Source of the DNA: Acidobacteria bacterium RIFCSPLOWO2_12_FULL_54_10
GTDB taxonomy: Bacteria; Acidobacteriota; Terriglobia; 2-12-FULL-54-10
Assembly: GCA_001767075.1 (NCBI GenBank)
Contig: MEKX01000019.1
Span: forward strand, 2,091 to 57,942
Direction of reading: 5' to 3'
Length of the DNA stretch: 55,852 bases
A model generated the notes under the pieces. It worked only from the letters and a program-made list of their open reading frames with translations, was not told the origin of the DNA and did not search any database. Positions within the stretch are counted from its first letter, which is position 1; each line of letters begins with the position of its first letter. Below are positions 18,302-26,187 of this stretch, in pieces. The position numbers were made by a program, and so were the translations under genes.

Positions 18302-20989
18302 ATGAAAAATAAAATTTTGATGGGTTCCCTGGGTATTGTATTTGCTATTTATCTCTTGCTTGTGCCAGACGCGGCCTGGAGCCAGATTGCATTCCGCGGT
18401 CGAGTTCTGGATGGGAGCGGAGCTTCGATCCCGGCTGCTACAGTTTCCATTTACTCAGGAGATGCAGTCGCAGGACAAGCGGTGACGGCAACCAATGGAG
18501 AGTTTTCCCTTTCAGTTGCGGTGGGAGAATACCGAATCGAAATTGCAGCAACGAATTTCCAAAGCTACTCCGAGACCATTCGAGTCAGCAGCGGCATGAA
18601 ACCGCTGAATGTCACGCTCCGCCTGGCGACGATGCAACAATCGGTGGACGTGCAAGAGGAGCCGCTGTCGATTGCGCTGGAATCGGACCGCAACATAGGC
18701 GTACTAGTGCTCGACCAGGAAACAATAAAGGACCTGCCGGACGATGAGCAGGAACTTGCCGATATTCTGCGGGAGCTGGCTGGGCCTGGTGCCGGGGGAG
18801 AAGCCGAGATAGTGGTGGATGGTTTCACCGGCCAAAACGCCCCTCCGAAAGACCAGATTCAGGAAATTCGCATCAACAGCAGCCCCTTCAGCGCCGAATA
18901 CAGCCGACCGGGCCGGAACCGCATAGAAATCGTCACCCGCCCTGGAACAGGCTTGCTGCGGGGGAATTTGGCGTTTAACCTGCGAGACGAATCCCTAGAT
19001 GCCCGCCGGGCCATGGCGAATTTCAAGCCTCCCTACCAGCAGAGGAATTTCCGGAGCAATTTCAGCGGGCCGCTGCTGAAAGACAAGCTCTCGTTTTCCC
19101 TTTTCCTGATGCGGTCCGACCAGGAAAACAGCGATACAATTCAAGCCCTGACACCAGAGGGGGAAGCGCTTTCCCAAAGCGTGGTGATCCCTGCCGACCG
19201 CCGCATGTACAATGTCCGGCTACAGTACATGATATCGGACAGGCATACGCTGGATCTCAGCTCGGAATTCGGATCGAACGTCCGCAAGAACCAGGGTGTG
19301 GGGGGATTCACGCTGCCGGAAAGGGCGTCGGAGTCAAGCTCGCGGGATGGGGAATATCGCATCCGCGAGACCACGGTTCTATCTTCAGGAACGCTGCATG
19401 AAACCCGCTTCCAATACAGCCGCGATTCGTCTTCATCGAATCCATTGACCGATGCGCGGGCGATCAATGTGCTGGATGCCTTTCGCAGCGGGGGAGCGCA
19501 GAATCGCGCCAACCAGACCACCAACAGCTACCAGTTCGGAAACCTCTTAACGAACTCCAGGGAGAAACTTACACTGAGGGCAGGATTCCAGGGCAACTAC
19601 CAGCAACGAAGCACACGGTCAGAAGAAAATTTCCTGGGCACTTTCGTCTTTTCGGATCTGGCATCCTACCTGGCGGGCAAACCGACGACGTTTACGATCA
19701 ACAGCGGCAATCCGGTTTTGGATTTCAACCAATTTGAGATGGGTTTGTTCGTCCAAAACGATTGGCGGGTGACGCAAAAGTGGATGCTTTCCTTCGGGCT
19801 GCGGTATGAAGCGCAGACCAATAGCGGCGACAAGAATAATCTGGACCCACGAGTTAGTTTCGCTTACAGCTTGGGCAACGGAACCGTCCTGCGAGGCGGC
19901 GCGGGAATGTTCCATCAGCGGCTGGAGGGAGGAACGGTGGAGTCATTGATGCGCCTGGACGGCACTCGGCAACTGCAAACTGTAATCAGCTCTCCGTCGT
20001 ATCCTGATCCTTTCGCAGGGACCGGTGGCCAGAGCACGATTCCGTCGTCGCTTCGGGTCCGTGCGGATGATCTGGCGCAGCCCTATACCGTAAATTCGTC
20101 GCTATCTCTGGAAAGCCGTCTATCTGCCGCGACGACCATTTCCGCAACCTATGAGTTGATTCGCGGTATTCACCTGCTCCGCAGCCGCAACTTGAATGCC
20201 CCTCTGCCGGGCCAGACCGTCCGGCCAGACCCCTTGCGAGGCAATATCGAATTGCTGGAATCGACAGCGACTTCCACGTCGCACGCGCTCCATTTACGCT
20301 TGAACCAGCGTTTCGGGCCAATGTCCTTTTTTGGCAATTATTCGCTTTCCTCGAATCACAACAACACCGACGGACCCTTCAGCCTCCCTGCCAGCAACTA
20401 CGACCTGCGCAGCGAATGGGGACGGTCGCCGAATGACCAGCGGCACCGTTTTTCGATGGGCCTGACCTCAAGGCTACCGTGGAATATCAGTTCCAACCTC
20501 CGGGCGCAGGCAAACTCCGGAGGGCCGTTCAACATCACCACGGGATTCGACGACAACGGCGACACGCTGACGAATGACCGTCCTGCGGGATTTTCCCGGA
20601 ACTCCGGCCAGGGGCCTGGATTTTTTGATATGGATTTGAGCTTTACGAAAACGATTCCGCTGCGACGCACTCAGGAATCGAGCGCCGGACGCGGAGGCTC
20701 ACAGAATCCGCAAGCGGGGGGATTCGGTGGAGGACAGAGTTTCCAAGGAGGACCGGGATTTCAGGGTGGAGGAGGGTTCCCAGGCGGTGGACCGGGATTT
20801 CCGGGCGGCGGAGGCGGGGGCGGACGTTCCAGCGGGCCGACGGTGGCGATTACCGCCAATATCAACAATCTTCTGAACCACACGAACTTCACGCGCTTCA
20901 ACGGGGTTTTGACTTCGTCCTTTTTTGGACGGGCGAATTCGGTCCGCAATCCGCGCGAGATTGAAGTTGGGTTGCGGTTCAATTTCTAG
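18302..20989 (+). CDS. Oar-like / TonB-dependent receptor-type outer membrane protein with carboxypeptidase-regulatory-like N-terminal domain
   Basis: Signal peptide; RGRVLDGSGASIPAATVSIYSG; plug-like region; C-terminal beta strand ending EVGLRFNF. Confidence 0.88.
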   Translation: MKNKILMGSLGIVFAIYLLLVPDAAWSQIAFRGRVLDGSGASIPAATVSIYSGDAVAGQAVTATNGEFSLSVAVGEYRIEIAATNFQSYSETIRVSSGMKPLNVTLRLATMQQSVDVQEEPLSIALESDRNIGVLVLDQETIKDLPDDEQELADILRELAGPGAGGEAEIVVDGFTGQNAPPKDQIQEIRINSSPFSAEYSRPGRNRIEIVTRPGTGLLRGNLAFNLRDESLDARRAMANFKPPYQQRNFRSNFSGPLLKDKLSFSLFLMRSDQENSDTIQALTPEGEALSQSVVIPADRRMYNVRLQYMISDRHTLDLSSEFGSNVRKNQGVGGFTLPERASESSSRDGEYRIRETTVLSSGTLHETRFQYSRDSSSSNPLTDARAINVLDAFRSGGAQNRANQTTNSYQFGNLLTNSREKLTLRAGFQGNYQQRSTRSEENFLGTFVFSDLASYLAGKPTTFTINSGNPVLDFNQFEMGLFVQNDWRVTQKWMLSFGLRYEAQTNSGDKNNLDPRVSFAYSLGNGTVLRGGAGMFHQRLEGGTVESLMRLDGTRQLQTVISSPSYPDPFAGTGGQSTIPSSLRVRADDLAQPYTVNSSLSLESRLSAATTISATYELIRGIHLLRSRNLNAPLPGQTVRPDPLRGNIELLESTATSTSHALHLRLNQRFGPMSFFGNYSLSSNHNNTDGPFSLPASNYDLRSEWGRSPNDQRHRFSMGLTSRLPWNISSNLRAQANSGGPFNITTGFDDNGDTLTNDRPAGFSRNSGQGPGFFDMDLSFTKTIPLRRTQESSAGRGGSQNPQAGGFGGGQSFQGGPGFQGGGGFPGGGPGFPGGGGGGGRSSGPTVAITANINNLLNHTNFTRFNGVLTSSFFGRANSVRNPREIEVGLRFNF
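20715..20830 (+). repeat. Imperfect Gly-codon repeat tract within the OMP gene
   Basis: ggaccgggatttc at 20750-20762 and 20789-20801 (39-bp period); encodes GGFGGGQSFQGGPGFQGGGGFPGGGPGFPGGGGGGG. Confidence 0.8.
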
Positions 20990-21035
20990 GCCGTTTTTAC
21001 AGTTGCTATGTAGTGGGCGTGAGAGGGTGATTTCT

Positions 21036-21165
21036 GTCGCCCTTCCGGGGCTTGCGGGTTTAATTGCTCTTGTTCCCACGGCTCCCCCCCCCAGCACATC
21101 GGAATGTGCCAGGGACCCCGGTATTGAGCCGTGGGCTAGACTCTTGCGCCCCATCCGGGGCTAAA
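21036..21165. repeat. REP-like extragenic palindromic element
   Basis: cccacggctc 21075-21084 / gagccgtggg 21126-21135; nested gcacat-cgga-atgtgc 21094-21109; flanking gcccttccggggc and gccccatccggggc motifs. Confidence 0.6.
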
Positions 21166-21296
21166 CTTGAATAGTTATACATCAACGGTGGGTGGTCGCT
21201 CCCTAAACGAGATCTATATGTCGTTTAGTATCGCGGCTCGGATTCGGAATCTTGCGAGTCTACACAATTTGGGAAAATGGTATAGAGAGGCAATCC

Positions 21297-22073
21297 ATGC
21301 GAAGAAAATGGCTTCGGGTTCTGATAGTTCTGGCGTTTGTGATTCCGGCGGTGGCGCAGGAGGGGGATTTTGAAGGGGACGGGGACGACCCGGCTGACAT
21401 CTTTGGAGGCTACGGGGACAGCTCGGGCCAGCAGGGCCAGAGGGGGAATAATCCCCAGGGCAACCCGCTGGCGCAGTTCGACGAAGTGCTCGGCCAGGCA
21501 GGAATACCTCTCAGCGAGGAGCAGCGAACATTGCTCACCGCCAAGATGGAAGAACAGCGGAAAAGTATGAGGGAAGCAATTCCGGGAGGGGGACCGGCGG
21601 AAGGCCAGCGCGGAGGGCCAGGGAGCGGCCAGCCGGGAAGAGCTGGTGCAGGTCCAGGCGGGCGGCGGGGCAGTGGAATGCCGACGCAAATGGCGAACCG
21701 CATGGAAGCCTTCCAGGAAAGCCTGCTTTCCATTCTGACACCCGATCAACAAAAAGTCTGGAAGGAATACCAGACGGCAGAAATCCGGAGGCGGGGAGGG
21801 TATCCGGCACTGCGATTAATGCTGGAAGAAGCAGGAAGCCCGCTCAGCGAAGAACAGGCATTAGCCGTGCAATCCGAATATCGTGATTATTTCGATCAGC
21901 GACGCGCGCTGCGCCCGGCAGTTAGCAGTCAGGCGGATGCAGCCCAACCGGATGCAGCAAAGTTGAAGGAGATGGAAGATCAGCACCTTTCGCGATTAAT
22001 AAAACTGCTGAACGCCGAGCAACGCAAAGCGCTGATTGAGTCGCGAAGGAAGGAAACCAAAGGATCAAATTAA
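21297..22073 (+). CDS. Secreted Gly/Gln-rich protein with two LTxxQ-like (Spy/CpxP-like) helical repeats
   Basis: Signal peptide MRRKWLRVLIVLAFVIPAVAQ; AGIPLSEEQ...ILTPDQQ and AGSPLSEEQ...LLNAEQR; agagagg upstream of ATG 21297. Confidence 0.7.
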   Translation: MRRKWLRVLIVLAFVIPAVAQEGDFEGDGDDPADIFGGYGDSSGQQGQRGNNPQGNPLAQFDEVLGQAGIPLSEEQRTLLTAKMEEQRKSMREAIPGGGPAEGQRGGPGSGQPGRAGAGPGGRRGSGMPTQMANRMEAFQESLLSILTPDQQKVWKEYQTAEIRRRGGYPALRLMLEEAGSPLSEEQALAVQSEYRDYFDQRRALRPAVSSQADAAQPDAAKLKEMEDQHLSRLIKLLNAEQRKALIESRRKETKGSN

Positions 22074-22373
22074 AGACGAGCTATCCGTGCCCGTTTCAGG
22101 ACTTGAAAGGCTAATCCGAAGAGATTTCAAGAATTGGGAATCGGAGGGCGTAAAATCCGTGCTGATGTTCTGCTCTACGATATCCTCCTGGTCCTGAGTC
22201 AAATCCTCGCGGCGGTTGAAACCGATGGTGGCTTCGAGAATAAGAAAGACATCGTAACCGGCACTCTTAATATTGGCGATGGCCTCAGAAATCGGCTCGG
22301 AATCGGTCAGGGAATCATTAATCGCTGCGCCAAGATCTTTCATCAGATGCTTCAGATTGTCATCCAATTCCAT
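22065..22373 (-). CDS. Small acidic hypothetical protein
   Basis: 102 aa from MELDDNLKHLMKDLGAAINDSL...; soluble, helical. Confidence 0.65.
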   Translation of the reverse strand: MELDDNLKHLMKDLGAAINDSLTDSEPISEAIANIKSAGYDVFLILEATIGFNRREDLTQDQEDIVEQNISTDFTPSDSQFLKSLRISLSSPETGTDSSSLI

Positions 22374-22645: not shown

Positions 22646-24745
22646 TTATGGCGCGACAGCAATGGTTACTGTATTGCTGGTTTGCCCCTCGAATGTGGTG
22701 AGTTGCAAGGAGACCGTGTTTCCTGTGGGTAGGCCGGCAGGCAACTGAATGTTGAGCTGATACAGGCCTACGAAAAATGGAGCCAGGCCAGCAAACAGGA
22801 CATTGGCCGCGGGGATTGCAGTTCCACCAATACGGACAGCAGGCTTGTTGACCATTTGCGGGACTGGAGCGCCATTCATTACAGGAGCGATACCGCTGGG
22901 GAAGGTGGGAGTAACCGATCCAAGTCCAGAGCAGTAAACAACAATAACATCACCTGCATTAGCAGGGCGCACTACACGGCCCGCAACACTGCCCGCCGGA
23001 GCGGCAATGATATCGTCATTGCCAATCAAAACAGCGCCTTGATCGGGATTGGTGGAAGGAACTTCGAAAATTCCCGGAGCCGTGGGGCTGAGAGTCACAT
23101 TAATGGTGTTGCCAGCAGCACCGGGACCTGTGAAGACGGTGATGTCGGCGGAGGAACCAGTGATTTCATAAGGGATCACCGCGTTGATCTGCCCTGGGCT
23201 TACAAACATGAGCGGCGCGAAACGGTTTCCGACTTTAACGCTGACCCCACCAAGCCAAGTGGGCAATGGACGTGCCACAGCCTCTTCCAAACCATTGCTG
23301 CCTTTTCCGAATGCCAAATCCGAACCGCCGATAGAAAAAATAGTACCGGGAGCGAGAGTGGTTCCAAAACCTGCGCCTTCACGGACCGGCAAACCGACGG
23401 TGGGATTTACCGTGGCGATGACGCCGCCGGGAGCAGCGGAGGTAGAGGTAGCATTGCTGAGGGTCAAATTTGACGGGCCTAAAGCAGCAGAAGCGCTGAG
23501 CGTGAGATTCGCTTCTCGGAATGGCTGGCCGTTCTGCAATGTGCCGCCGGAAGTAGCGCCCGCGGAGAGTCCTGTACCTGCAAAAGAAAAGTTGGAATCA
23601 CTGGTCAAGTTCGTGCCGGTTACCAAAACGCGGTGGGTTTTGTTGCGAGGCAGATGAAGTGGGGAACCGGAAGCCGTTATAGAGTTCCCGATGATCAGGC
23701 CGAGCAATTCGATATTTAACTGGCTGGCGGCGTTAGCGGGGAGGACGACATTCGCCGTGGCTCCTTGTCCGGCAGCCAAAGCAATCGAGGTGGGATTGGC
23801 CTGGCCACCTAAAAACGTTGTAGCAAAATTGTTATTGCCATCAACATAGTAGCTGTTTGGCCCCGGCCAGCCGTTGGAGAGAGAAATTGGTCCATCGAGC
23901 GGTTCAACCAAAACGCGGTACGTGCCCGGCGGCAAGCCGCCCAGAACATAGTCTCCTGTTGCGGTGGTTAGCTGTGAAGCAACAGGAACGCCTCCGGTCT
24001 GGCTGACCGCGACGACGTGAGCAGACTTAACATTGGTTCCGGTAGAGGTTGTCACCTTGCCGGAAATCGTGCTCGTGCTGGGCGCAAAAGTCTGCACAGG
24101 GTAGACTGTGGCGATGGTAATCATGTCATCGGACTGAAGGTCTCTGCTGGCGATGCCGGTACCCGACTCCCCAAACGGATTCATCATTGAACTGAGAATG
24201 CCACTATGATCGAGGCCGAGCAGATGGCCGATTTCGTGAATGGCGACAGCGACGAGGTCAGTGGCATTGTTCGCCCCGACGGGCGTAAAGTTTCCAGCCG
24301 TACGGCTGAAAACAATATCCACATCGACAATTCTGGTGCCGCTGGCGGCGGTAATGGCGGCAGCCAATACTCCCGTGGGAAGAGCCCCAGAAGAATCTTG
24401 AAACGTAACTAAGTTTACGCCATCGTTTGGATTGGCGTTGACCAGTTGTTTATTGAGAGAGCATTCTGATTCAAGAGGACCAAAAACAATTGCCGCTCCG
24501 GAAGCTTGAGTCCAGGTGCGGAAGGCGTCATTGATAGCGCCCAACACAACGAGCTGCTGGAGTTCTCCCGTAAAACCAGATACTCCGCCCGGATTGACGG
24601 CGCAGGAAATTGGCATGCCTTGCCATCGGACTGGCTGTCCTTGTGAATTAACAATAAAGGAACCAGCGTTAGCAAGATTAGGAAAGAACGAGAAGGCGAG
24701 AAGAGATGAGACGAGAACCAAAGCGCGGGAGTCTGTGATTTTCAT
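22646..24745 (-). CDS. Secreted matrixin-type zinc metalloprotease with carboxypeptidase-regulatory-like domain and TIGR03437-like C-terminal domain
   Basis: Signal peptide; AIHEIGHLLGLDHSG (HExxHxxGxxH) and SSMMNPF Met-turn; C-terminal PAVRIGGTAIPAANVLFAGLAPFFVGLYQLNIQLPAGLPTG. Confidence 0.9.
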   Translation of the reverse strand: MKITDSRALVLVSSLLAFSFFPNLANAGSFIVNSQGQPVRWQGMPISCAVNPGGVSGFTGELQQLVVLGAINDAFRTWTQASGAAIVFGPLESECSLNKQLVNANPNDGVNLVTFQDSSGALPTGVLAAAITAASGTRIVDVDIVFSRTAGNFTPVGANNATDLVAVAIHEIGHLLGLDHSGILSSMMNPFGESGTGIASRDLQSDDMITIATVYPVQTFAPSTSTISGKVTTSTGTNVKSAHVVAVSQTGGVPVASQLTTATGDYVLGGLPPGTYRVLVEPLDGPISLSNGWPGPNSYYVDGNNNFATTFLGGQANPTSIALAAGQGATANVVLPANAASQLNIELLGLIIGNSITASGSPLHLPRNKTHRVLVTGTNLTSDSNFSFAGTGLSAGATSGGTLQNGQPFREANLTLSASAALGPSNLTLSNATSTSAAPGGVIATVNPTVGLPVREGAGFGTTLAPGTIFSIGGSDLAFGKGSNGLEEAVARPLPTWLGGVSVKVGNRFAPLMFVSPGQINAVIPYEITGSSADITVFTGPGAAGNTINVTLSPTAPGIFEVPSTNPDQGAVLIGNDDIIAAPAGSVAGRVVRPANAGDVIVVYCSGLGSVTPTFPSGIAPVMNGAPVPQMVNKPAVRIGGTAIPAANVLFAGLAPFFVGLYQLNIQLPAGLPTGNTVSLQLTTFEGQTSNTVTIAVAP

Positions 24746-25485: not shown

Positions 25486-26187
25486 TTAAGGCGTAGTGGC
25501 CGGAGTTGTCGCAGCGGGAGCTGGCTGCGGGGCCGGCGTGGTTGCTGTAGTCGCACCCGATGGCGCAGTCGCTGCGGGTGCTGCGCCGATTTGCGCCGAG
25601 GTCTGATCGTAAAGCTCCATTATTTTCTCGGTAATGTCGATGGCTGCATCGGCATAGAGAATGGGGCTTTGAGAGACATCAAGAACTAATTGATAACTGT
25701 TCTTTTTCGCATAGTCGGTGACAACGCCCATCATCTTGCGTCCGATCTCGTTGACGGCATCCTGTTCGGCCTGCTGGAACTCCGAGGTGGCATCCTCATT
25801 GGTCCGATTGAAGGCCTTTGTTTTATCGTCAATGGAACGAAGCAGACGAGTTTTGGCATCTTCGCTCAGCATATTATCTTGCGTGCGCAATTGGTTTTGC
25901 AGATCAATAATTTCCTTCTGCTGTTTTTCCAATTCCGCCCGCTTTGGTGCGAATTTGTTCTGGAGCTCTTTCGCCGCCGACTGTCCTTCGGTGCTTTGGG
26001 CGATAGCCGCCTGGATATTCATGATCGCCAATTTGGGCGCCGCGTTCTGAGCGAAAGCGCTGATGCCCAAGGTCAAGCCGAGAACGAGCCCGATTGCTGG
26101 AATTGCTGTTTTCACCGAACCTCCTAAGACGGATATTTTCCCCGCCATACTTTCACACAGACTAGTCATCATATTTTTATTCAGCAT
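25486..26187 (-). CDS. OmpH/Skp family periplasmic chaperone
   Basis: Signal peptide; KLAIMNIQAAIAQSTEGQSAAKELQNKFAPKRAELEKQQKEIIDLQNQL coiled coil; Ala/Thr/Pro-rich tail. Confidence 0.85.
   Translation of the reverse strand: MLNKNMMTSLCESMAGKISVLGGSVKTAIPAIGLVLGLTLGISAFAQNAAPKLAIMNIQAAIAQSTEGQSAAKELQNKFAPKRAELEKQQKEIIDLQNQLRTQDNMLSEDAKTRLLRSIDDKTKAFNRTNEDATSEFQQAEQDAVNEIGRKMMGVVTDYAKKNSYQLVLDVSQSPILYADAAIDITEKIMELYDQTSAQIGAAPAATAPSGATTATTPAPQPAPAATTPATTP

Follow-up and report, generated by a model that had tools for sequence, protein, structure and literature searches.

What does a secreted helical protein do when its gene lies directly behind that of an outer-membrane receptor? We met this arrangement in a stretch of 55,852 nucleotides, referred to here as the window, which is part of a 2.9 Mb metagenome-assembled genome; Acidobacteria gp5 MAGs are among the class relatives of this source genome. 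A sequence-only reading of the window had proposed that the protein consists of two Gly-linked units resembling the periplasmic chaperones Spy and CpxP, and that it serves the neighboring receptor, which has a Gly-rich turn of its own, as a chaperone or accessory factor. The features on which the argument rests are as follows; residue numbers are those of the two-unit protein.

18302-20989 (+): Oar-like outer-membrane receptor (895 aa), composed of CarboxypepD_reg, plug and OMP_b-brl_4 barrel (Pfam; barrel trees)
18635-18661 (+): TonB-box-like segment QQSVDVQEE of the receptor (alignment, motif scan), with no counterpart in fused receptors
18734-18976 (+): plug core of the receptor (alignment); its first half is missing from single-unit fusions
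20663-20836 (+): Gly-rich turn of the receptor, 58 aa, with approximate limits set by motif
21297-22073 (+): the two-unit gene, encoding a secreted Spy/CpxP-like protein of 258 aa (open reading frame, homologues, class-wide profile matches)
21297-21359 (+): signal peptide MRRKWLRVLIVLAFVIPAVAQ, read from the sequence, with a predicted cut after AVA or AVAQ
21462-21794 (+): unit 1 (AlphaFold; hhalign to unit 2 and to a Spy/CpxP profile), with helices 57-67, 74-94, 128-144 and 149-166 and motifs LSEEQ (72-76) and LTPDQ (147-151)
21579-21686 (+): Gly/Arg-rich insertion, residues 95-130, between helices 2 and 3 of unit 1 (sequence; AlphaFold)
21795-22070 (+): unit 2, from an invariant GG (167-168), with helices 168-178, 185-205, 220-237 and 240-256 and motifs LSEEQ and LNAEQ (238-242) (AlphaFold, pLDDT 80; hhalign; Pfam Metal_resist, E 1.3e-4, below cut-off)

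The open reading frame, its signal peptide, both proposed units and the LTPDQ and LNAEQ motifs were thus recovered as the sequence-only reading had described them. The signal peptide as read has no lipobox and is followed by a disordered Gly/Gln-rich stretch, unit 1 and unit 2. AlphaFold, working from shallow alignments of 3 to 4 rows, modeled the protein as two sets of four helices, mostly at pLDDT 80 to 90, with the Gly-rich parts disordered, and gave four helices at a mean pLDDT of 80 for unit 2 alone. The description of a Gly-linked tandem had to be corrected: the Gly-rich stretch sits within unit 1, between helices 2 and 3, and the units abut directly at the invariant G167-G168. This insertion is modeled as disordered (pLDDT below 50 at residues 96-129), and it is short in a paralogue (L109). 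Each unit carries two LTxxQ-type motifs, one before helix 2 and one between helices 3 and 4, and Q76, Q151, Q187 and Q242 are invariant in nine homologues. Homologues with 52 to 56% identity occur in two other genera of the family to which the source genome belongs.

Profiles of the individual units, built from 12 free-standing homologues, bore out both the duplication and the proposed kinship. Unit 1 matched unit 2 with an hhalign probability of 97.2 (E 3e-11), and the column-shuffled and reversed profiles used as controls for this repeat stayed at or below 0.4. Against a comparison profile made of Spy, CpxP and Acidobacteria LTXXQ proteins retrieved with them, the two units each reached 93% (E 3e-7 for unit 1, E 2e-7 for unit 2; all these E-values are single-comparison values), with column-shuffled controls at most 1.6% and reversed profiles at most 1.9% across all hhalign comparisons. 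Judged by these profiles, the two units are homologous to each other and the protein is related to the Spy/CpxP family, which is known for ATP-independent chaperone activity and a cradle-shaped dimer. In the alignment of unit 2, LSEEQ lies opposite LTDAQ of Spy and LNAEQ opposite LTPEQ; each unit would therefore be the equivalent of one complete Spy monomer, and the protein that of two monomers covalently joined.

Searches with single sequences were less sensitive. Pfam scored PF13801 at 22.6 bits (cut-off 29.2) and PF07813 at 12.3 bits (cut-off 24.3), and the only PDB match was ZraP, both in the single-sequence search (E 0.06) and in the profile search (E 0.13), each too weak when taken alone. 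The proposed check of the fold against Spy gave a mixed picture. Four helices per unit were modeled, and 10 of the 43 Foldseek matches of the unit-2 model among 350,000 chains, top matches included, were chains of ZraP, CnrX, NccX or Spy; none of these was significant alone (best E 2.2), and the whole-protein model had no significant match. A Spy-like four-helix fold of the units is likely on these models.

We searched 399 genomes of the class with profiles and then read the neighborhoods of the matches. There were 14 free-standing two-unit genes, and 12 of them, belonging to two families, lay directly downstream of an Oar-like receptor gene on the same strand (the window, G001, G004, G066, G030, two each in G008 and G048, G023, G060, where the gene is frameshifted, and G036, where it is split over two contigs). 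Both exceptions were in G072, whose two copies are unlinked to a receptor. The spacing between receptor and two-unit gene ranged from a small overlap to about 300 bp and is 307 bp in the window. This survey had been set beforehand as a refuting test of the receptor-accessory idea, and the association with such outer-membrane proteins held in other genomes.

Several other elements of the window surround this gene pair. Repeat-like DNA lies at positions 20995-21190 between the two genes; bases 1-58 and 130-180 of this segment recur separately at about 15 other places in the genome, and it contains inverted arms, for example CCCACGGCTC/GAGCCGTGGG. Behind the two-unit gene, at about 22065-22373 (-), lies a small gene of about 100 aa (MELDDNLKHLMKDLGAAINDSLTDSEPI...) that is syntenic after the receptor in family f1, with or without a two-unit gene (L112, L167). 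It is followed by genes for a secreted metalloprotease of the matrixin type, which carries CarboxypepD_reg and TIGR03437, the Solibacter C-terminal domain (22646-24745, -), and for a Skp/OmpH-like periplasmic chaperone (25486-26187, -), the latter 3.4 kb from the two-unit gene; the neighborhood in G001 (L112) is similar to the region of this Skp/OmpH-like gene.

The weak matches of our first search for relatives were the front ends of long open reading frames, in which the unit is part of the receptor itself. More than 20 intact frames, mostly of 800 to 1000 aa and from two classes, encode a signal peptide, one or two units and a barrel, and a profile of the fused units turned up more of them in a different class of this phylum, in 4 of its 193 genomes, and recovered the window gene in the source genome (E 6.5e-5). 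We rejected an origin as assembly artefacts, given intact frames in many genomes and two classes; three entries of the first list (L012-L014) were left out as apparent chance Gly-rich matches. Pfam detected the OMP_b-brl_4 barrel in all ten fused receptors tested and the helical unit in none of them, so this architecture is easily overlooked. One contig (L090, G016:C61, 2589-11530) carries three two-unit fused receptors in tandem. With a unit fused to receptors of the same barrel clade and a gene directly behind the receptor in most free-standing cases, the receptor-accessory idea gained support from two sides.

The receptor in the window has a CarboxypepD_reg front end and an OMP barrel, with Pfam matches to PF13620 (E 7.9e-13) and PF25183 (E 3.6e-61). 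Its plug gave no PF07715 match at E 1, and the plug core can be aligned across the clade; by alignment and motif scan, SVDVQ behind the CarboxypepD domain resembles a TonB box. When the fused receptors were aligned with it, their units stood in place of CarboxypepD and the TonB-box-like segment; in receptors with a single unit, the first half of the plug was missing as well. A motif scan matched the aligned segment in 8 of 10 adjacent receptors (NVEVI in L114 and VVDAG in L116 fell outside the pattern) and produced two matches in 20 fused ones, namely, YLTVEQ, which is the unit's own motif, and a short segment behind a signal peptide. Such a short motif is weak evidence alone, and the argument is carried by the alignment. 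In Oar of Myxococcus xanthus, the CarboxypepD extension is dispensable for PopC secretion and the plug and TonB box matter (PMC6434023), which makes the missing TonB-box-like segment the strangest part of the fused receptors.

Since the adjacent and fused receptors had been found through the helical unit, we also searched by the barrel alone, scoring the five best candidates per genome. Matches extended down to 295 bits, and the next group began at 286 bits. A tree of 57 barrels, based on the barrel only, placed all adjacent and fused receptors in one clade of 42 (support 100/99). A unit was present in cis or next door in 35 of the 40 scorable members, two others being unscored because of incomplete front ends; no unit was seen at 11 sister-group receptor loci or at 30 other Oar-like loci of the source genome. 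A clade barrel was present in every one of the 11 genomes that have a free-standing two-unit gene. Because of the relatedness of the genomes, neither the clade counts nor the genome counts are independent. The trees of the two-unit protein and of the receptor were concordant in their well-supported groups. Several receptors of the sister group (L173-L182) have neighbors that, by names guessed from their sequences, are ABC-transporter-like and kinase- or phosphotransferase-like; this conserved context is unlike that of the partnered receptors. Oar-like OMP_b-brl_4 proteins or fragments, of which there are at least 30, take up a large share of the source genome (G000) considering its 2.9 Mb.

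Five clade receptors were found without an adjacent or fused unit (G002, G005, G006, G036:C131 and G072:C249). In G005 and G006, the receptor is directly followed by the gene that in the window comes after the two-unit gene, and no two-unit remnant was seen at the site. The partnerless receptors are nested among partnered ones in the barrel tree, which suggests that the two-unit gene was lost, with gain as the alternative. We thus conclude that the link of the two-unit gene to the receptor is real, though non-obligate.

The Gly-rich turn of the window receptor, also part of the sequence-only reading, is indeed present. From the strand order, we infer that it is the last periplasmic turn of the receptor. 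Measured by motif, with automatic and approximate limits of which a few are misplaced, it spans 31 to 88 aa in adjacent receptors, is shorter in fused ones and covers about 3 to 30 aa in most other Oars; within it, a motif of the F(A/V)(E/D)PQRGG type is common to gp5 receptors. The turn is not strictly linked to the partner, because three family members without a two-unit gene (G002, G005 and G006) keep it, and we dropped it as a firm claim for a docking site.

Pairing in trans or in cis, as seen in some soil Acidobacteria, points to a dedicated helper or gate for the channel. With moderate confidence, we regard the two-unit protein as a dedicated periplasmic Spy-like partner, that is, a holdase or assembly factor of the adjacent Oar-like receptor; periplasmic location, physical binding, a pseudo-dimer and chaperone activity are what we infer for it. 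The protein would be exported to the periplasm by its signal peptide, and its two four-helix units in one chain would probably form the covalent counterpart of the Spy dimer. Most likely acting as holdase and assembly factor at the periplasmic face, it may bind unfolded or flexible periplasmic parts of the receptor, such as the plug segment and the Gly-rich turn, and keep them from aggregating, or stabilize them, while the barrel is being inserted and afterwards. Related receptors carry this unit as an N-terminal domain of their own. Spy of E. coli binds and protects outer-membrane proteins, keeping them in a dynamic state, and can stand in for Skp and FkpA (PMC8546600), which makes a tandem Spy-like protein devoted to one receptor a natural reading. 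The partnerless receptors weigh against it, because a client-specific chaperone should rarely be lost. So do the two homologues in G072 with no receptor next to them and the Foldseek searches, in which no match reached significance. The permanent fusion of unit and receptor is as compatible with a structural or gating part as with a chaperone.

It is accordingly possible, if doubtful, that the units are a gating or docking subunit which replaces the TonB-coupled front end and acts as a periplasmic lid or part of the plug once the channel is mature; the window protein would do so in trans, the units of fused receptors in cis. The position of the fused units, with half of the plug gone in single-unit forms, agrees with such a role, as does the fact that a fused domain remains with the mature receptor. 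Yet the window receptor retains its own CarboxypepD, TonB-box-like segment and plug, three close relatives have the receptor without a partner, and the roles known for Spy-like proteins are those of chaperone or sensor rather than gate. A bolder version, which we think rather improbable, is that barrels of this clade have swapped their TonB-coupled front end, with CarboxypepD, TonB box and half of the plug, for a Spy-like module, turning a chaperone fold into a built-in gate or coupling domain, the window protein being that module in trans.

Signaling offers another possibility. At six gp5-type loci, an ECF sigma factor and a TM-anchored LTXXQ protein are encoded upstream; where the anti-sigma position was read, it holds a protein of 114 to 119 aa, which at one locus is DUF5056-like with a score below cut-off. 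Five of these loci continue with the receptor and then the two-unit gene, and at the sixth, in G072, the two-unit gene follows alone. The anchored protein is a strong LTXXQ homologue (hhalign 98.4%), and CpxP, ZraP and CnrX are established regulators. The unit might thus be an adaptor through which the condition of the receptor, or of unassembled barrels, is signaled to the ECF sigma factor via the membrane-anchored CnrX-like protein, and the gp5 layout suggests autoregulation by the state of the envelope. We nevertheless consider the adaptor unlikely, as no such operon was found beside the window gene, its family-f1 relatives or any fused receptor examined. The operon without a receptor (L111, G072:C105, 4450-7908: ECF sigma factor, small protein, TM LTXXQ protein and two-unit gene) adjoins a diaminopimelate-decarboxylase-like gene.

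Two further readings were weighed. The protein might be a metal protein or a general chaperone for envelope stress that is functionally unconnected with the receptor. Its family is known for general chaperones and metal sensing, and the source genome has a separate LTXXQ protein (G000:C22); the fusions and the joint phylogeny with the receptors make this very unlikely. Metal binding is improbable on composition, with 1 His and no Cys in the window protein and 0 to 2 His and 0 or 1 Cys in each of 12 homologues, and we ruled out metal sensing on these counts. Hardly probable at all is that the protein is cargo which the receptor exports, on the model of PopC and Oar in M. xanthus, where secretion of PopC requires Oar (PMC6434023). 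The two-unit gene does come after the receptor gene, but a unit that also exists as a receptor domain is unexpected for secreted cargo, and the two-unit protein is kin to Spy, whereas PopC is a protease.

Spy-like proteins are usually regarded as metal sensors or as chaperones for stress in general; the present one is tied to just one clade of receptors, both in trans and in cis. Among the papers listed in searches of the open-licence literature, none described a TonB-type receptor that is fused to or paired with a Spy-like domain, and a 2019 survey of the front ends of TonB-dependent transporters lists five architectures, none with such a domain (PMC6434023). The two-unit protein and its receptor are a natural pair for asking how periplasmic chaperones choose their outer-membrane clients, and the fusions raise the question of whether a TonB-type barrel can still work once a chaperone fold has taken the place of the TonB-box-like segment and of half the plug.

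Compared with known systems, the window receptor resembles Oar-type TonB-dependent transporters (PF13620 plus barrel) in its CarboxypepD_reg domain, TonB-box-like segment and OMP_b-brl_4 barrel; its clade differs from them in having a putatively dedicated Spy-like partner and in fused members that lack CarboxypepD and the TonB-box-like segment. The gp5 operons are like CnrYXH-type ECF systems in combining an ECF sigma factor and a TM-anchored LTXXQ protein with a small protein at the place of an anti-sigma factor, but they are linked to a receptor and a two-unit protein instead of a metal efflux pump, and this layout does not occur beside the window gene. CnrX, NccX and ZraP (Metal_resist, PF13801) provide the top single-sequence Pfam match and the best, albeit weak, structural matches of unit 2, and gp5 genomes have an ECF operon with a TM-anchored relative; unlike them, the window protein is almost free of His and Cys, has no membrane anchor and shows no evident metal site. 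With Spy and CpxP (LTXXQ, PF07813), finally, it shares a signal peptide, a small, predicted all-helical unit and two LTxxQ-type motifs per unit in matching places. It departs from them in having two units per chain, a Gly/Arg-rich insertion in unit 1 and a score below the Pfam cut-off, in being tied to one receptor clade and in existing also as a domain of the receptor itself.
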